Source of the DNA: Dethiosulfovibrio peptidovorans DSM 11002
GTDB taxonomy: Bacteria > Synergistota > Synergistia > Synergistales > Dethiosulfovibrionaceae
Assembly: GCF_000172975.1 (NCBI RefSeq)
Contig: NZ_ABTR02000001.1
Location: 1,154,501 to 1,218,500, forward strand
Reading direction: 5' to 3'
Length of the DNA: 64,000 nt
In this document: piece by piece, positions 12,205 to 51,288 of the stretch
How positions within the stretch are numbered: the first letter of the stretch is position 1
Layout of the letters: each line of letters opens with the position of its first letter
The notes under the pieces: model-generated
The model's database searches: none
What the model was told of the DNA's origin: nothing
The model's input: only the letters and a program-made list of their open reading frames with translations
Program-made: the position numbers and the translations under genes

Positions 12205-14358
12205 ATGGGAGAGGAGAAAAAGAGCGTATCGCTCACAGTGACTGGGATGACCTGTGCATCCTGTTCCAGAATAGTGGAGAAAAGACTTTCGAAGATCGAC
12301 GGAGTCGCCTTCGCTGCGGTCAACCTGGGCACCGAGACGGCCTTCGTCGTATTGGAAAAGGACGTGCCGCTTCAGACCCTGGAGGAGGCCGTGACCAAGG
12401 CGGGATACGGCATCTCTTGGGAGAGACCGGCGGATCTGGAGAGCAGGCGTTACTTCGAGGCCAGACGAAACCTTATCCTCGCCTGGGTCGTCACAGGCCC
12501 CCTGATGGCCCTGATGATACCCCACATGGCGGGCTATCACGTCTTTGGTTATCACTGGATGGAGATAGCCGGAGGTGCTCTGGTGATATTCGGTGCCGGA
12601 TGGCGTTCTCTCAGAGGGGCCTGGATAGCCCTCAGCCACGGACACGGCAACATGGACGTGCTGGTCTGTCTCGGAGCTCTGGCGGCGTGGTCCACGGCCA
12701 TACTGGCCCAGTCCGGCGTCGCCGTATCGTCCTTCGGGGCGGTGGGGGCCATGATAGTTGCCCTTCACGTAACGGGACGGTTCATAGAGTCTCACCTAAG
12801 GGACAGGGCCTCCAAGGAGATCAGGGCCCTTGTGGGAATACAGGCCCGGGAGGCCAGAGTGGTCCGAGACGACGGAGAGGTCACCGTTCCGATAGAGGCG
12901 GTGTCGTCCGGGATGGTCCTGTCGGTTCGGCCGGGAGAGAGGATACCATCCGACGGAGTCGTGCTATCCGGCCGCTCCGCCGTGGACGAGTCCATGATAA
13001 CAGGGGAGCCCATTCCGGTATCCAAGGAAGAGGGGCACGAGGTCACTGGGGGGTCCGTCGCTGTGACGGGGTCTTTGAAAATAGAGGTTACCCGCACCGG
13101 AGAGGACACGTTTTTGTCCAGAATGATAGCCCTCATAGAGGAGGCCCAGGGAGCCAAGATACCCATACAGGCCTTCGCAGACAGGATGACCGGGGCCTTC
13201 GTGCCGGTGGTGGCCTTCTTGGCACTGGCATCCGGTCTGTTCTGGTATCTCGGGGTGGACCGTTTCGGATGGATACTGGACCAGGCATCCCGCTGGATAC
13301 CCTGGGTCGTCTCCGCAAGAGATCCCCTCTCGGTAGGGCTCTTCGCCTTCGTCACCACCATAGTGATAGCCTGTCCCTGCGCCCTTGGGCTGGCTACCCC
13401 CATGGCCCTCATAACCGGAACCGGCGCCGCCTCCAGAAAGGGCATAGTGATAGGCAACGCCGAGGCCATACAGACCGCCGGAGACGTAACGGTGGTGGTG
13501 CTGGACAAGACCGGCACCCTGACGGAGGGGCACCCCGAGGTGACTCGGATATCTCTGGATCCCCGATCTCTGGCCGTGGCGGTGGCCATGGAGTCGGCGT
13601 CCAACCACCCTCTTGCCAAGGCCATAGCCGCTCTGGATGCCGACCCCATAGACATGGAATCGGTGGAGGAGATAGCCGGAGAGGGACTGACCGCCGTAGT
13701 GGACGGCGAGACCTGGACCCTGGGACGACCGAAGTCCATGGAAAACTACGAGGAGATGACCCAGGCGGGCCGGACCGTGGTGGAGGTCCGAAAGGATGGC
13801 GAGGTCATGGGATTTCTGGCCCTGGAGGACCCCATCAGGCCGGAGTCGGCCGACGCAGTGTCTGAGCTTAAAAAACTGGGCATAAGGCCGGTGATGGCCA
13901 CCGGAGACAACCGAGGCGCCGCCGAGCTGGTGGCGGACGCCGTCGGAATAGACCGATCGGATGTCCATGCCGGTATTAAACCGGAGGACAAACTGGCCAT
14001 AATCCGATCAGAGCAGAGCAAGGGCGGCAAGGTCCTGATGGTGGGAGATGGCATGAACGACGCCGCGGCCCTCAAGGGCGCCGACGTCGGGGTCGCGGTA
14101 GGATCCGGTACCGACTTGGCCATAGATAGCGCCGACATGGTTATAGTCTCCGGCGGAGCGGAACGCATCGCCCAGGGAATAGCCCTTTCCAGAAAGACCT
14201 TCTCCGTCATAAGGCAGAACCTGTTTTGGGCTTTTGGCTACAACCTGTTGGCCCTTCCCCTGGCCATGGCGGGATTGCTTCATCCGGTGGTGGCCGAGGT
14301 CGCTATGACATTCAGCTCCATATCGGTGATACTCAACTCCATGAGAGTCGGTCGTTGA
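12205..14358 (+). CDS. copA: Copper-type P1B ATPase (CopA-like)
   Basis: A 717-residue heavy-metal exporting ATPase in the inner membrane. One N-terminal HMA domain has Cys17 and Cys20 (GMTCASC). The actuator loop has TGE (MITGEPIPV). The membrane metal site is CPC (residues about 390-392 in ACPCALGLATP), the signature of the Cu+/Ag+ subgroup. The phosphorylation motif is DKTGTLTEG near 434, the HP motif is SNHPLAKAI, and the hinge is GDGMNDAAAL. It exports Cu(I) from the cytoplasm. Neighbours are an HMA chaperone-like protein upstream and a NapH-like ferredoxin and glutaredoxin downstream. The stop codon overlaps the next promoter. Confidence 0.93.
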   Translation: MGEEKKSVSLTVTGMTCASCSRIVEKRLSKIDGVAFAAVNLGTETAFVVLEKDVPLQTLEEAVTKAGYGISWERPADLESRRYFEARRNLILAWVVTGPLMALMIPHMAGYHVFGYHWMEIAGGALVIFGAGWRSLRGAWIALSHGHGNMDVLVCLGALAAWSTAILAQSGVAVSSFGAVGAMIVALHVTGRFIESHLRDRASKEIRALVGIQAREARVVRDDGEVTVPIEAVSSGMVLSVRPGERIPSDGVVLSGRSAVDESMITGEPIPVSKEEGHEVTGGSVAVTGSLKIEVTRTGEDTFLSRMIALIEEAQGAKIPIQAFADRMTGAFVPVVAFLALASGLFWYLGVDRFGWILDQASRWIPWVVSARDPLSVGLFAFVTTIVIACPCALGLATPMALITGTGAASRKGIVIGNAEAIQTAGDVTVVVLDKTGTLTEGHPEVTRISLDPRSLAVAVAMESASNHPLAKAIAALDADPIDMESVEEIAGEGLTAVVDGETWTLGRPKSMENYEEMTQAGRTVVEVRKDGEVMGFLALEDPIRPESADAVSELKKLGIRPVMATGDNRGAAELVADAVGIDRSDVHAGIKPEDKLAIIRSEQSKGGKVLMVGDGMNDAAALKGADVGVAVGSGTDLAIDSADMVIVSGGAERIAQGIALSRKTFSVIRQNLFWAFGYNLLALPLAMAGLLHPVVAEVAMTFSSISVILNSMRVGR

Positions 14359-14383
14359 CAATCATACCCCCTTAGGGTATATT
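14355..14383 (+). promoter_or_regulatory. Promoter with CsoR/CstR-like operator
   Basis: TTGACA (14355-14360), 17-nt spacer, TATATT (14378-14383). The spacer and -10 are covered by a palindrome, ATACCC(CCTTA)GGGTAT at 14364-14380, of the kind bound by CsoR/CstR-family copper or persulfide repressors (family knowledge). A bound repressor would block the -10 directly. It controls the NapH-like gene and probably the glutaredoxin. Confidence 0.7.
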
Positions 14384-14414
14384 TGAGGCGAACTAGAGAG
14401 GGGGTCGTTCCATC

Positions 14415-14864
14415 GTGAGCGGAAAGTCCATTCGCTGGATATCGGCTTTTGTTTATGGTACCGTTATGGTAATAGGGTGGTGGTATCCCGTGGTCGCCCT
14501 CGCCGTTTTTCTCCTGATGGGGTTGGCCCTTTTGGCGGGGAAACGCAGGAAGTGGTGCGGTTCCTACTGTCCGAGAGGAAGCTTTCTCGACCTAGTGATG
14601 AAGAGGATATCGCCTAAGAAACCCATCCCCAGGTGGATGACGGGAAAGAGAATATGGTATATATCGATAGCGGTATTCCTGTGTATGTTCGGTTTTCAGG
14701 TGGTCGCCAGCGGATTGCTTGAGAGTTTTTCCTGGAAATTGATGGGAAAAGTAGCCTACAGGATGTGTTTCGTCACCTCCATGGTGGCGTTGCCTTTGGC
14801 GTTATGGAGAAACCATCGGGCCTGGTGTTCGATCTGTCCGGTTGGCAACTTGTTAAGACGTTAG
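14415..14864 (+). CDS. NapH/FixG-like membrane 4Fe-4S protein
   Basis: A 149-residue inner-membrane protein with three to four hydrophobic segments and two cysteine motifs, CGSYCPRG near 49-56 and CSICPVG near 140. These resemble the polyferredoxin-type CXXXCP patterns of NapH, FixG and CcoG. It is much shorter than NapH (about 270-300) and lacks the cytoplasmic ferredoxin repeats. It starts with GTG after GAGAGGGGG. The operator in front suggests induction by copper or sulfane sulfur. A role in membrane electron transfer to a thiol or metal target is an inference. Confidence 0.7.
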   Translation: MSGKSIRWISAFVYGTVMVIGWWYPVVALAVFLLMGLALLAGKRRKWCGSYCPRGSFLDLVMKRISPKKPIPRWMTGKRIWYISIAVFLCMFGFQVVASGLLESFSWKLMGKVAYRMCFVTSMVALPLALWRNHRAWCSICPVGNLLRR

Positions 14865-14903
14865 TTATCGCATATTTTTTCAGCCGAAAAAGGAGGAGTC
14901 GTC

Positions 14904-15134
14904 ATGACCGTAAAAGTTTACTCGACCCAGAGCTGTATCTGGTGCAAGAGAGTCAAGGAATATCTTACCGAGAAGGGCGTGGATTTCGAGCCTATAGACG
15001 TAGGAGCCGATAGAGAGGCTGCGAAGCAGATGGTCGCCAAGACCGGTCAGATGGGGGTTCCCGTCATAGATGTGGACGGTCGCTTTATCGTAGGCTTCGA
15101 CAAGGCGGCGTTGGACGAAGCCCTGGGGCTTTAG
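14904..15134 (+). CDS. Glutaredoxin-like protein (NrdH/YruB type)
   Basis: A 76-residue thioredoxin-fold protein with the active site CIWC (Cys11, Cys14) and the cis-proline block GVPVIDVDGRFIVGFD that binds glutathione-like or thiol substrates. It has AAAGGAGG in front and lies 39 nt after the NapH-like gene, probably in the same transcript. A strong terminator follows. A role in thiol or persulfide handling fits the operator upstream, but this is inferred. Confidence 0.88.
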   Translation: MTVKVYSTQSCIWCKRVKEYLTEKGVDFEPIDVGADREAAKQMVAKTGQMGVPVIDVDGRFIVGFDKAALDEALGL

Positions 15135-15271: not shown

Positions 15272-15676
15272 TTGAACTTGAAGAAAACCTTGGCGATGGT
15301 AGTCGGTTTAACGTTGTTGGTCGTGGCGATCTTTTTCGCCACGGAGCTTTACGATCACCGATCCATCTTGGGGACGGCGTTTTACAGGGAGAGGATATCT
15401 CTTCCCGATGGGTGTCGTTTTATAGTGATACTCTCGGAGGAAAATGAGGGAACCAGGATCCCCGTGGCGTCGGTATCTCGAAAACTGGAGGGCGAACAGG
15501 TCCCTCTTCCCTTCGAGCTGCTTTACAGGGAAAAGACGATATCGGAAGGAGCGGTCTACTCGCTTTCCGCCAGAATAGAGAGCGGGACGGGAGAACTGTT
15601 GTTCCTTACTGAAGATCCGGTTCCCATGCCGAAAGACGACGAGCCTGTCGAGATAATGTTGATATCGGTGAGATGA
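15272..15676 (+). CDS. YbaY/YscW-like secreted protein
   Basis: A 134-residue protein with an N-terminal membrane anchor or uncleaved signal (LAMVVGLTLLVVAIFFATEL). The following domain matches the YbaY/YscW style seen in small envelope proteins: YRERISLPDGCRFIVILSE, then VPLPFELLY and YSLSARIES. No lipobox Cys is present. It starts with TTG at 15272 after AGAGGAGCGAG; a TTG two codons later is possible. It lies alone between two terminators. Function unknown; in other bacteria such proteins sit in the envelope. Confidence 0.6.
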   Translation: MNLKKTLAMVVGLTLLVVAIFFATELYDHRSILGTAFYRERISLPDGCRFIVILSEENEGTRIPVASVSRKLEGEQVPLPFELLYREKTISEGAVYSLSARIESGTGELLFLTEDPVPMPKDDEPVEIMLISVR

Positions 15677-15737: not shown

Positions 15738-16490
15738 CTAGCCGTTGCGTTTCCTCGAGTCGAATCTGGCGCCGCATTTTCCGGGGGTGGAGTCCTTCCT
15801 CATCTGGAACCTCTCTTTGCCCATGTTCTCGATCATCTGAAGTCGGAGCTCAACCTTTTTCTCCGCCAGGGCGGCCAGGTCCTCTGCCGATGCGTTGCCT
15901 GTCATTACCGAGTGGATTTCGTCCCTGAGGGCGTCCATTGCCTTCCGGTTGTCGGCTCTGGCCTTTTCAACGGCTTCGTTCCTGCCGGATCTGCCGGGCC
16001 TTCTCCCTCTGTCGTCGTGCCCTCTACGGAAGGGGCCTTCCTGGTGCCTTTTGTCCGCCAGCTTTTTCTGATCCTCGTCGAGAAGACCGTAGAGGTCGCG
16101 ATGAAGCTCCATCCTCTTGATCTCCAGGGCCACCATGTCCTTCTTCATCTCGGCGACCTTGCCCTCGTCTATAGTTCTCCCCGCCGACAGGTCGTAGCGA
16201 TAGTCCCTCAGGGCCCAGGCTGTTTTCCTAGCGAGTTCCGAGTTATCGTCGAACCACTTGCGCTCTATCTCTCCCATTTCGAGTTTCTGCTTCGCCGACA
16301 GGCTCAGATCGTCGCCCCAGCGGTTCATTCCCTGGCCGAAACCCATCATCGTCTGTCCGTCGTGATGCGTCCTATTACCTCGGTCCTGTCCTCTGCATCC
16401 GTCCCAAGCCTCGGCGCTCGCAGACATCGAACCGATCGTAACCGCCGCTACCGCCGCCAAAATAGCCAGTGTTCTCTTTCCCTTTTTCAT
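15738..16490 (-). CDS. Spy/CpxP/ZraP-like periplasmic stress protein
   Basis: A 250-residue secreted, highly charged helical protein. The start at 16490 follows GAGGAGG. The signal peptide is MKKGKRTLAILAAVAAVTIG with cleavage near SASA-EA. The mature part has two copies of the LTxxQ-style motif of the Spy/CpxP family in variant form (LSLSAKQKLEMGEIE near 65-80, and LLDEDQKKLAD near 138). It is rich in His, Met and acidic residues, as in ZraP. Members act as periplasmic chaperones or metal sensors and repress their two-component kinase. It is divergent from a CpxRA-like pair and shares a matching operator with it, which supports a Cpx-type circuit. Confidence 0.75.
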   Translation of the reverse strand: MKKGKRTLAILAAVAAVTIGSMSASAEAWDGCRGQDRGNRTHHDGQTMMGFGQGMNRWGDDLSLSAKQKLEMGEIERKWFDDNSELARKTAWALRDYRYDLSAGRTIDEGKVAEMKKDMVALEIKRMELHRDLYGLLDEDQKKLADKRHQEGPFRRGHDDRGRRPGRSGRNEAVEKARADNRKAMDALRDEIHSVMTGNASAEDLAALAEKKVELRLQMIENMGKERFQMRKDSTPGKCGARFDSRKRNG

Positions 16491-16555: not shown

Positions 16556-16609
16556 ATTCTAGCCCGGGGCAGGTCAAGGTGCCTTATAGGAACGGTAAAG
16601 GAATGTAAG
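16556..16609 (-). promoter_or_regulatory. Promoter and CpxR-type box of the Spy/CpxP-like gene
   Basis: A -10 TAGAAT is read at 16561-16556 on the minus strand. Upstream of it, GTAAA-GGAAT-GTAAG (16595-16609 on the plus strand) matches the GTAAA-N5-GTAAA direct repeat known for E. coli CpxR in 9 of 10 bases. The box would lie about 45-60 nt before transcription start, a normal activator position. Confidence 0.6.
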
Positions 16610-16627
16610 GGAGGTAGCCGCATCGGT

Positions 16628-16667
16628 AAAAAAAGGGGACCCCCTGCCATTTGGGGGTGGCAGGGGG
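16628..16667 (-). terminator. Rho-independent terminator (minus strand)
   Basis: On the minus strand CCCCCTGCCA pairs with TGGCAGGGGG, followed by TCCCCTTTTTTT. It ends the unit that starts at the cobalamin riboswitch, about 50 nt after the gene remnant's stop. Confidence 0.85.
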
Positions 16668-16714
16668 GATGGGGAAAGAGTTTGCATCCCTATGGGGATG
16701 TCTCAGGAAGGGTC

Positions 16715-16831
16715 TTATTGATCGGGGACCATGGTCCCCTTTTCGATGTAGTTCAGGTGCCAGCCCAGGGCGGAAGCCAGATCGTGAGGTTCGTGTCCTC
16801 CCTTGGCCTCGCCGCTGTTTAGGTTCTCCTC
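16715..16831 (-). pseudogene. C-terminal remnant of the cobalamin-riboswitch target gene
   Basis: A 38-codon open stretch without any usable start codon, bounded upstream by TGA (16834-16832). Its translation looks like real protein (EAKGGHEPHDLASALGWHLN, ending in GTMVPDQ), with Gly/His-Asp motifs and a tidy stop followed by a terminator. It begins only a few bases after the riboswitch terminator. I read it as the tail of a deleted gene once controlled by cobalamin. The family is not recognised. A non-canonical start or an error in the sequence is the alternative. Confidence 0.5.
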
Positions 16832-16836
16832 TCACG

Positions 16837-16868
16837 AAAAAAAGAGACGCCCCCTGAAGGACGTCTCT
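16837..16868 (-). terminator. Riboswitch expression-platform terminator
   Basis: Minus strand GAGACGTCC-TTCAG-GGGGCGTCTC followed by seven T. It lies about 80 nt downstream of the cobalamin aptamer and just before the gene remnant, the right place for regulated attenuation. Confidence 0.85.
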
Positions 16869-16949
16869 GAATCGCAACGAAATAAAACCGATCGGCCGAT
16901 GAGCCGACGGGTTCTCGCCGATTACCCCGAGTCCTCGCAGGGTGGATGG

Positions 16950-17105
16950 GTCACGTGTTCAGGCCGGTATCCTGGCTTCCCTCATCCATCGCCGAGCCTT
17001 CCCGGAGAAACTCTCCAGTGGCGTTTTAGACGACGTCGGGTATACAGTGGCGGGTCCGCGCCGGATTCTCACCGGTCTTCCCTGTCACCTGAACTCGATC
17101 GATTA
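16950..17105 (-). ncRNA. Cobalamin riboswitch
   Basis: On the minus strand all landmark blocks of the B12 aptamer occur in order: GGTGACAGGG, CCGGTGAGAATCCGG, GCGGACCCGCCACTGTA (the B12 box region), GCCACTGG, GGGAAGGC and the closing GCCAGGATACCGGCC. It is transcribed from a good promoter at 17141-17114 and ends in a terminator at 16868-16837. Ligand binding normally turns such units off. The only coding sequence downstream is a 38-codon remnant, so the riboswitch now appears to control nothing intact. Confidence 0.93.
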
Positions 17106-17113
17106 TGAAGGTC

Positions 17114-17141
17114 ATTATATACTTTTTTTTGACGAGGTCAA
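17114..17141 (-). promoter_or_regulatory. Promoter of the cobalamin riboswitch transcript
   Basis: Minus strand TTGACC (17141-17136), 16-nt spacer, TATAAT (17119-17114). Both hexamers are still near consensus although the target gene is decayed. Confidence 0.75.
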
Positions 17142-17158
17142 CCCCCGGCGAGAAAATC

Positions 17159-17208
17159 GTAAAGAATGGTAAGGGAGCTCCCTACTTCGTGTTTCAGCGC
17201 GATATAAT
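17159..17208 (+). promoter_or_regulatory. CpxR-type box and promoter of the response-regulator gene
   Basis: GTAAA-GAATG-GTAAG at 17159-17173, then a perfect TATAAT at 17203-17208 without a good -35. This is the pattern of an activator-dependent promoter, with the box roughly 40-55 nt before transcription start. It fits positive autoregulation by the encoded CpxR-like protein. Confidence 0.6.
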
Positions 17209-17260: not shown

Positions 17261-17944
17261 ATGGATAAAATTTTAGTCGTAGACGACGATAGGGAGCTGG
17301 GCGAGCTCCTGGCGGAGTATCTCGGAGGAGAGGGCTTTCAGGTAAGCCTCAGCTACGACGGTAAAAACGGGGCCCTGGAGGCCGCCGCAGGAAAGCACGA
17401 TCTGGTCGTGTTGGACGTCATGCTGCCAGGTCAGAGCGGTTTCGAGGCCCTGAAAGAGATCAGGAGGACGTCGTCCATCCCGGTGATCATGCTGACCGCC
17501 AAGGGAGACGAGGTGGACCGGGTCTTGGGGCTGGAGATGGGAGCCGACGACTATCTTCCCAAGCCATTCAGTCCCAGGGAGCTTTTGGCCAGGGTTCGGG
17601 CGGTCATGAGGAGGCGAAACGGTCCGTCCGATCCGGAGCGGCTGACGGTGGACGATCTGGAGATGTTCGTCCGTTCCAGACAGGTGATGTTGGACGGCAT
17701 CATAGTGGATCTGACCTCCATGGAGTTTCGGCTGTTGGAGGTGTTGCTCCGCTCGGCCGGTCAGGTTGTGTCCAGAGACGAGCTGTTTCGTAAGGTGCTC
17801 GAGAGATCGGCGGCTCCTTTCGATCGCAGCCTGGATATGCACGTCAGCAATCTCAGAAAGAAGCTCGGACCCCACGAGGACGGAACGGACCGAATAAGGA
17901 CCGTCCGGGGCGAGGGCTATCTCTATACTCTTCCGGTGAACTGA
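17261..17944 (+). CDS. OmpR/CpxR-family response regulator
   Basis: A 227-residue two-component regulator. The receiver domain (residues 1-115) has acidic residues DDD at 8-10, phospho-acceptor Asp52 in VVLDVMLPG, and the conserved Lys in LPKPFSPREL near 105. The C-terminal winged helix (about 130-225) includes RSLDMHVSNLRKKLG and VRGEGYLY. ATG 17261 is chosen because GGGAGG lies in front; an upstream in-frame ATT start is unlikely. The kinase gene follows after one base. The nearby Spy/CpxP-like gene and the paired boxes suggest an envelope-stress system. Confidence 0.92.
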   Translation: MDKILVVDDDRELGELLAEYLGGEGFQVSLSYDGKNGALEAAAGKHDLVVLDVMLPGQSGFEALKEIRRTSSIPVIMLTAKGDEVDRVLGLEMGADDYLPKPFSPRELLARVRAVMRRRNGPSDPERLTVDDLEMFVRSRQVMLDGIIVDLTSMEFRLLEVLLRSAGQVVSRDELFRKVLERSAAPFDRSLDMHVSNLRKKLGPHEDGTDRIRTVRGEGYLYTLPVN

Positions 17945-17945
17945 G

Positions 17946-19349
17946 ATGTCCTGGCTGAGGTCCGCCACTCTGTTCAGAAAGATCTTTTTAGGTTTTTTGC
18001 TGGCGATCGCAGCGGCGTCGGTGCTTCACGTTGCGGTTACGGGGCTTGTCGTCCGGTTGGGTCTTCTAGATCTGTCTCTGGAGGCCAAGCTCAGAAAGGA
18101 GCTGAATAGGGAGGCTCCGTCTCTCGTGGCTCTTTACGAAGAGAGAGGGGCCGACGCCCTGAAGGACGAGCTCGGTCGTTTGAGGGAGGAGAGGCGGCTG
18201 TTGTTCGTCATTCTGGACGATAGAGGAGCTCCTCTGGCGGGTATGGTCCCTTCCCGAGGAGAGAGGATGATGCCCGACATCAGGCGTCATCACGGTCTCT
18301 CTGGCCCCCCCCGCACCTCCTGGATGAAGGATCTTCCCGCCGCCACCGAACCGGTAGTCTCTTCCGGCGGCGCGACATACGTGGTCACTCTGTTCGCCCT
18401 TCCCGGAGCCCTTCCTCCCAAGGATGGCTTCTACCTCTCTCTGGTCCTATACTTCGCCGTTTTGATGGCGGTGGGAGGGGCGGTGAGCTACTTTCTCGCT
18501 CGACATATATGCTATCCGGTAGAGGCTTTGAGCAGGGCCTCTCTGGCTCTGGCTTCGGGGGATCTGTCCGTAAGGGCCGAGAGGGAGGGGCCCTTCGGCG
18601 ACGATGAGATAGGTCAGCTGGCCAGAAATTTCGATTCCATGGCCGATCACGTCGAGAGAAACATCACAGGTCAGAGCAGGCTCCTCGGGGACATTTCCCA
18701 CGAGCTTAGGTCTCCTCTTACTAGGCTGAACCTGTCGCTGGAGCTGCTTCGAAACAGGCTTCCCGAGGACCTGGACGGCCTTATGGACAGGATAGAGCGG
18801 GAGTCGGAGAGGATGAACCGCATGATCGGCGATCTTCTCGGGCTCGCCAGGGAGGAGTCTCGCTTCGGAGGGGAGCGGAGGGAGTCGGTTTCCCTGATGG
18901 ATCTCCTGTCCTCCGTGGCGAAGGACGGCCGTTTCGAGGCGCATGCCTCCGAGAAGGACGTTGTTTTAGGGGACGTTCCGGACGTTGCCGTATCGGTCGA
19001 CAGAGGGGCCATGGAAAGCGCCCTGGAGAACATCGTGAGAAACGGAGTCAGGTACACCGCCCCCGGCACGGTGGTGGAGCTGAGGGCCGAATACGAACCT
19101 GAAGAGGAGCTTCCCCTCTCGATAATAGCGGAGGATCGCGGGCCCGGCGTGGCGGAGGAAAATCTGGAGGCCATATTCAGGCCCTTCTTCCGAGAAGGTG
19201 AGGCCAGGGACAGGGCTTCCGGCGGAGTGGGACTCGGCTTGGCCATAGCCCGTCGGGCTGTGGAGAGGCACGGAGGAATCGTGGAGGCGGCCAACAGGGA
19301 CGGAGGTGGTCTGTCTGTCAGGATCAGACTTCCCCTGGGATTCGGCTAG
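17946..19349 (+). CDS. CpxA-like sensor histidine kinase
   Basis: A 467-residue membrane kinase. TM1 is near residues 10-35 and a periplasmic sensor of about 120 residues follows, with a His/Arg-rich stretch (MMPDIRRHHG). TM2 is near 160-182, HAMP is from about 183 to 235, and the H-box is ISHELRSPLTRL with phospho-acceptor His252. The ATPase domain carries N, G1 (EDRGPGVAEE), F and G2 (GGVGLGLAIARRAVE) boxes. It pairs with the regulator just upstream. The domain order equals CpxA, and the local CpxP-like protein is a plausible periplasmic inhibitor, though the signal is unknown. Confidence 0.9.
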   Translation: MSWLRSATLFRKIFLGFLLAIAAASVLHVAVTGLVVRLGLLDLSLEAKLRKELNREAPSLVALYEERGADALKDELGRLREERRLLFVILDDRGAPLAGMVPSRGERMMPDIRRHHGLSGPPRTSWMKDLPAATEPVVSSGGATYVVTLFALPGALPPKDGFYLSLVLYFAVLMAVGGAVSYFLARHICYPVEALSRASLALASGDLSVRAEREGPFGDDEIGQLARNFDSMADHVERNITGQSRLLGDISHELRSPLTRLNLSLELLRNRLPEDLDGLMDRIERESERMNRMIGDLLGLAREESRFGGERRESVSLMDLLSSVAKDGRFEAHASEKDVVLGDVPDVAVSVDRGAMESALENIVRNGVRYTAPGTVVELRAEYEPEEELPLSIIAEDRGPGVAEENLEAIFRPFFREGEARDRASGGVGLGLAIARRAVERHGGIVEAANRDGGGLSVRIRLPLGFG

Positions 19350-47248: not shown

Positions 47249-47356
47249 AACTCTTATCGAGAGAGGCGGAGGGACTGGCCCGATGAAGCCCGGCAACCTG
47301 CCCGTAAGGGCATGAGGTGCCAACACCAGCGACCGACAGGTCGAGTGATAAGAGGA
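47249..47356 (+). ncRNA. SAM-I (S-box) riboswitch
   Basis: P1 pairs CTCTTATC (47251-47258) with GATAAGAG (47347-47354). Between them are the S-box blocks GAGAGGCGGAGGGAC, GATGAAGCCCGGCAACC and GGTGCCAACACC, followed by GGAAGGA. It precedes metK and should reduce expression when SAM is high through the terminator at 47376-47412. Confidence 0.96.
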
Positions 47357-51040: not shown

Positions 51041-51288
51041 GGGCATCTCTAAAAACTACGTCCGGGTCTCCTCGTAGAGGTCGTCCCGCCTGCGCCCTGT
51101 CTCGCCCGAGCGTCTTTTCGACCTGCCTGTTTCGTACGGACCGCCTCGGAGGGCACGTCCTGTGCCCCTCGGCTTGGGGCGACGTCCTGTCGCCCCATTC
51201 GTACTACACGACAGCAGGTCGAAAAGACGGGCTCGAACGGGCTCTGTCGGAACGATCTCTACGAGGATCAACGTTTTTAGAGATGCCC
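51041..51288 (+). repeat. Palindromic structured element, copy B
   Basis: A ~248-nt element. Its outermost stem is perfect: GGGCATCTCTAAAAAC (51041-51056) pairs with 51273-51288. The next stem pairs 51070-51084 with 51252-51266 (one G-T). The third, CGTCTTTTCGACCTGC (51111-51126), pairs with 51214-51229. The core hairpins with GTCCT loops lie at 51151-51167 and 51176-51196. Compared with copy A (36937-37182) the core is nearly identical, and the stem differences are compensated on the opposite strand. It occupies the 335-nt gap between the TAXI gene and the nitrilase gene. Confidence 0.93.

Follow-up and report, generated by a model that had tools for sequence, protein, structure and literature searches.

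A very probable Cpx-type envelope-stress circuit with a preserved operator in Dethiosulfovibrio peptidovorans (Synergistota)

The window analysed here, a stretch of 64,000 nt (64 kb) from Dethiosulfovibrio peptidovorans DSM 11002, contains a gene on the plus strand for a CpxR-like response regulator of the OmpR family (227 aa, 17261..17944), assigned by its domains, its family ranking and its place in a tree. It is adjoined by the gene of a CpxA-like sensor histidine kinase (467 aa, 17946..19349, plus strand), assigned by family ranking and by its HAMP, HisKA and HATPase_c domains. Divergent from both, on the minus strand, lies the gene of a 250-aa exported protein of the LTXXQ (Spy/CpxP-like) type (15738..16490, Pfam PF07813). 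Between the divergent genes there are two CpxR-type boxes, both on the plus strand. Box 1, GTAAAGGAATGTAAG (16595..16609), is a candidate operator of the LTXXQ gene and is reversed relative to that gene, reading CTTAC-N5-TTTAC toward its ATG, which is 119 nt from the start of the box. Box 2, GTAAAGAATGGTAAG (17159..17173), is a candidate operator of the cpxR-like/cpxA-like operon and reads GTAAA..GTAAG toward the regulator, with 102 nt from its start to the ATG. An earlier note on this DNA had reported GTAAA-N5-GTAAG at these two places, and both boxes were found to be exact and their coordinates correct. GTAAANNNNNGTAAR matches nowhere else in the whole window, where 0.06 matches were expected, and none of 100 shuffles of the window produced two or more.

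A -10-like hexamer, TAGAAT (16556..16561, minus strand), lies 33 nt beyond box 1 and may belong to the LTXXQ promoter, and another, TATAAT (17203..17208, plus strand), lies 29 nt beyond box 2 as part of a putative cpxR promoter. These distances agree with the further claim that each box precedes the presumed transcription start by about 40–60 nt. The TAGAAT hexamer is kept in the related genomes G001–G005 and the TATAAT hexamer in G001 and G005. No good -35 was found 17 nt from TAGAAT, and the cpxR promoter of the window offered a poor match only; a -10 without a good -35 at both promoters is what would be expected if an activator at the box were required.

The regulator combines a receiver domain (PF00072) with an OmpR/PhoB winged helix (PF00486). 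Among 99 NCBIfam families its best match was CpxR, at 233 bits, followed by PhoB at 205 bits; the CpxR equivalog cut-off (PRK10955, 341 bits) was not reached. Its full-length identity to E. coli CpxR is 50%, and the best solved structure for its DNA-binding domain was that of CpxR (4uht), ahead of an RstA chain (75 vs 65 bits). The recognition helix, which we compared with that of CpxR as had been proposed, turned out to be nearly the same rather than completely different: in the 17-residue stretch PFDRSLDMHVSNLRKKL, 13 residues are identical to E. coli CpxR and the remaining four are conservative differences, and 5–10 residues are shared with RstA, OmpR, PhoB, BaeR, CreB, KdpE and ArcA. CpxR-type sequences formed one clade (97/94) apart from these same paralogues, whose branches are long. 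RstA of E. coli, the second-best structural match of the DNA-binding domain, differs in the recognition helix (10/17 residues) and falls outside the CpxR clade.

The best NCBIfam models for the kinase were those of CpxA, at 247 and 244 bits, with WalK next at 157; the CpxA equivalog cut-offs (486 and 800 bits) were not reached (244 and 247 bits, respectively). In its HAMP/catalytic half, 39% of residues are identical to E. coli CpxA over a stretch of 299 aa. The sensor domain is not recognisably of the CpxA type, and its low-confidence model (pLDDT 69) gave weak PAS-like matches and none specific to CpxA, with CpxA 3v67 at a probability of 0.11. No other curated family came as close to the regulator as CpxR, or to the kinase as CpxA, in support of the Cpx-like circuit of the earlier note.

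The LTXXQ protein scored 33 bits against PF07813 (cut-off 24.3) and has a hydrophobic N-terminus and two LTXXQ-like motifs, LSAKQ and LDEDQ. It did not reach the NCBIfam equivalog cut-offs of CpxP (160) or Spy (174), scoring 24 and 27 bits, and it is 19% identical to CpxP. In a structural model with a pLDDT of 67 overall and about 90 across the hairpin, the most probable Foldseek fold matches were the CpxP structures 3itf and 3qzc (probability 0.99 and 0.95, E 0.3–0.7), with a TM score of 0.63–0.66 by target length; the matches of this model back a CpxP-like fold as support, not as proof. With the periplasmic proteins Spy, CpxP and ZraP it has in common PF07813, the two LTXXQ-like motifs and the predicted helical hairpin, whereas it is longer than they are, and its second helical part has no counterpart in CpxP. 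Also in contrast to those proteins, several LTXXQ proteins of Synergistota (L089, L090, L091 and L096) contain PF07813 twice within the same chain, which may amount to the CpxP/Spy dimer made as a single polypeptide. Since the regulator has the domains, family ranking, tree position and recognition helix of CpxR and all three proteins miss their equivalog cut-offs, we call the system Cpx-type and do not apply the names CpxR, CpxA and CpxP in the strict sense.

Between the boxes, on the minus strand, lies a cobalamin riboswitch (16945..17107; Rfam RF00174, 93.8 bits), which stands outside the Cpx circuit and has the promoter TTGACC-16-TATAAT (17141-17114, minus strand). With its own promoter and terminator (16640-17141) it is orphaned in D. 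peptidovorans. At the riboswitch site, an intact gene for a 511-aa protein, which we take to be CoA-transferase-like, is present in G001 (L064 4474-6009) and G005 (L065 5582-7117); about 1.4 kb of it is missing in D. peptidovorans. The boxes of these two genomes are about 2 kb apart with the intact gene between them, so that each box has remained with the gene it precedes. By this gene between the boxes, the sister species rule out one operator common to both promoters, such as E. coli has. Upstream of the Cpx locus (12205-15131) there are genes for a heavy-metal (copper-type) P-ATPase, a Fer4_5 membrane protein and a glutaredoxin-like protein; no box was found near them, and a metal-related role of the Cpx-type circuit is conceivable. 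The window also contains a small exported protein of the YscW family (PF09619, TTG start, 15272-15673), a SAM riboswitch (47251-47354, plus strand) and a TwoAYGGAY RNA motif (51097-51249, minus strand).

Orthologues of the regulator were present in 24 of 61 relatives, at 54–99% identity, with paralogues at 47% and less. In G000, G001, G005, G036, G043, G045 and G054 an exact box precedes the regulator by 102–107 nt, and G029 has two exact boxes, 82 and 92 nt before it and in the opposite orientation. Exact boxes upstream of cpxR thus span four families of Synergistales (f1, f7 and f10 at -102 to -107; f8 at -82/-92). Sites with one mismatch to GTAAA-N5-GTAAA occur before the regulator at -82 in G020 and at -106 in G050, and sites with two mismatches at -68 in G002–G004; near the regulator, the exact box was absent from the fetched stretches, some of which lie on contigs that end early, in about half of the 24 Synergistota genomes. 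The LTXXQ gene is preceded by an exact box in all six members of the genus that have the gene (G000–G005), 118–121 nt before the ATG and in constant orientation. LTXXQ genes located elsewhere in the genome of G029, or 3' of the kinase in G045 and G054, have sites resembling the box between -86 and -123, with one or two mismatches. PF07813 was detected in 14 of the 61 relatives, each of which also belongs to the 24 that have the regulator, although the genomes are related and these counts are not independent. In G043 the CpxR orthologue is split over two frames (L086 4429-5114), as either a pseudogene or a sequencing error, and the perfect box upstream is retained.

To collect CpxR-type regulators of other phyla, 85,000 species genomes were searched with no more than the DNA-binding domain as query, blind to boxes and neighbours. 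Such domains were found in Acidobacteriota, Nitrospirota, Planctomycetota, Rokubacteria, Deferribacteres, Myxococcota, Thermodesulfobacteriota and Proteobacteria, those outside Proteobacteria coming mostly from metagenome-assembled genomes. Among the 77 CpxR-type loci with a usable start, an exact box lies within 350 nt upstream in 31 and is missing from that interval in 46. In total, 32 exact boxes were counted in 28,029 nt of upstream sequence at these loci, compared with 2 in 558,277 nt elsewhere, and a reversed control pattern occurred once upstream and four times elsewhere. Similarly, 30 LTXXQ genes had 23 boxes (with at most one mismatch) in 8,742 nt upstream and one in 86,409 nt elsewhere, the control giving one upstream and two elsewhere. 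A CpxA-like kinase follows the regulator in 74 of the 77 loci. In 43 of them LTXXQ gene and regulator gene point away from each other, which is the layout of E. coli; these belong to Acidobacteriota, Nitrospirota, Planctomycetota, Deferribacteres, Myxococcota and Proteobacteria. Acidobacteriota, Myxococcota and Proteobacteria have loci that combine the divergent LTXXQ gene with an exact box (cpxP<-box->cpxRA). The loci of Nitrospirota, Planctomycetota and Deferribacteres showed no exact box ahead of the regulator, and one LTXXQ gene of Nitrospirota (L217) has two one-mismatch sites upstream. The suggestion that operator and genes are conserved together is therefore borne out by boxes kept before both genes in the relatives and by the recurrence of this association in other phyla.

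The 2.58-Mb genome of D. peptidovorans holds four exact matches to the box and four to the reversed control. Two of the matches fall within coding frames, and boxes 1 and 2 are the only exact ones outside coding frames. The genome scan that had been proposed thus came out in part as foreseen, with both non-coding boxes at this locus, and in part not, half of the matches being coding and the total equal to the control. No excess appeared with one mismatch allowed (76 sites vs 78 for the control), so that the signal consists in where the two boxes sit and not in their number, and motif counting cannot define the regulon. Sorting the one-mismatch sites by a home-made coding score proved too noisy and was dropped. 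A motif no commoner than its control, with two of four matches coding, fits a very small regulon, made up of the two promoters with exact boxes and perhaps the gene of a transporter, presumably MATE-like. This gene, whose start is at about G000:C1:1242358, is a candidate third target: the near-box GTAAAGGAATGTCAA (G000:C1:1242421-1242435; L250 922-936) lies 77 nt before its ATG, has a TATAAT 22 nt beyond it and is part of a block of about 30 nt that is fully conserved in G001 and G005.

The equality of genome total and control is also a point in favour of taking the boxes for chance matches, and the closeness of box 2 to the riboswitch promoter of the opposite strand, whose -35 is 18 nt away, could suggest that they are parts of the riboswitch or terminator. 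Both ideas are largely refuted: the position, orientation and sequence of the boxes are kept in relatives, the enrichment before both gene families in other phyla is strong, and the riboswitch ends at 17107, with the box outside it, which leaves these explanations hardly any probability. It is also very unlikely, if slightly less so, that a different OmpR-type regulator of similar specificity acts on the boxes and that the neighbouring CpxR-like protein has other targets. The genome does encode other such response regulators (37 candidates at a first look), but the boxes are directly upstream of the CpxR-type regulator in eight Synergistota genomes and in the 31 loci counted above, as expected of autoregulation; moreover, none of six Synergistota paralogue loci has a box within up to 1500 nt upstream, and the paralogues compared have other recognition helices.

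The Synergistota CpxR-type regulators, from six families, formed one clade (99/96), as they did in a quick tree with seven families (SH-aLRT 96), and their nearest neighbours were sequences of Nitrospirota, Myxococcota and Thermodesulfobacteriota (97/78). In a smaller tree with the E. coli paralogues, the deep order within the CpxR clade was not resolved. An origin from enterics was rejected, a placement beside enteric CpxR having p=6.6e-5. Of the two origins offered earlier, ancient or transferred, the ancient one is the better supported by the single clade and the rejected enteric placement, although a clade of Synergistota with all gammaproteobacterial CpxR was not rejected (p-AU 0.108; p=0.11 when rounded). 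A move of the circuit as a unit from gammaproteobacteria into Synergistota would explain why the circuit has the layout and the operator of E. coli, and it is compatible with that last result; we nevertheless regard it as improbable, given the single Synergistota clade, its neighbours from other phyla, the rejected enteric position and the presence of the module in many other phyla. As far as the sequences can tell, the circuit may have been inherited from an early ancestor or transferred early; a recent transfer from enterics would not fit. The best explanation is that the cpxP<-box->cpxRA module was present early in Synergistota and is common to several other diderm phyla. A bolder proposal, which we hold tentatively and at somewhat less than even chances, is that the complete module was an ancestral diderm circuit that predated the split of at least Synergistota, Acidobacteriota, Myxococcota and Pseudomonadota and has kept operator and layout since; if so, it would be among the most deeply conserved regulator-operator pairs known.

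We therefore consider it very probable that D. peptidovorans possesses a genuine Cpx-type envelope-stress circuit with a preserved operator. We infer that a periplasmic signal would activate the membrane kinase, which would phosphorylate the CpxR-like regulator. In its phosphorylated form the regulator would, by analogy with E. coli and Pseudomonas (PMC12802237, PMC5063474), occupy the direct repeat of GTAAR half-sites in each box, presumably as a head-to-tail dimer. Once bound, it would activate its own operon, in positive autoregulation, and the gene of the exported LTXXQ-fold protein. This protein would protect or refold proteins of the periplasm. It may in addition act back on the kinase, as the periplasmic inhibitor of the earlier note, or it could be a Spy-like chaperone without effect on the kinase.

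The circuit resembles CpxRA-CpxP of E. coli in its GTAAA-N5-GTAAR operator, in the same orientation of the operator to both genes and in the divergent LTXXQ gene. It differs in having two boxes, one per promoter, where E. coli has a single box between cpxP and cpxR, and in the sister species, unlike E. coli, another gene separates the two promoters. Its target promoters may number two or three, compared with about 100 in E. coli (PMC12802237). CpxRS-CpxP of Pseudomonas aeruginosa shares the operator GTAAA-N5-GTAAA, with the cpxP box at -81 (PMC12802237, PMC5063474), and has another gene order and a larger regulon that includes RND efflux pumps.

In 2025, Cpx was still assigned to the alpha-, beta- and gamma-Proteobacteria (PMC12802237). 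The open-access literature that we searched held nothing relevant on Cpx in Synergistota or Acidobacteria, and other papers may exist. The circuit is more widespread than described in the literature found, and probably older. What was an enteric stress response becomes a module of several phyla, among them Synergistota, Acidobacteriota and Myxococcota, and a clean example of an operator and its reader that stay matched across deep divergence. For its part, the circuit of D. peptidovorans would be a minimal natural version, suited to testing the core function without the large enteric regulon.
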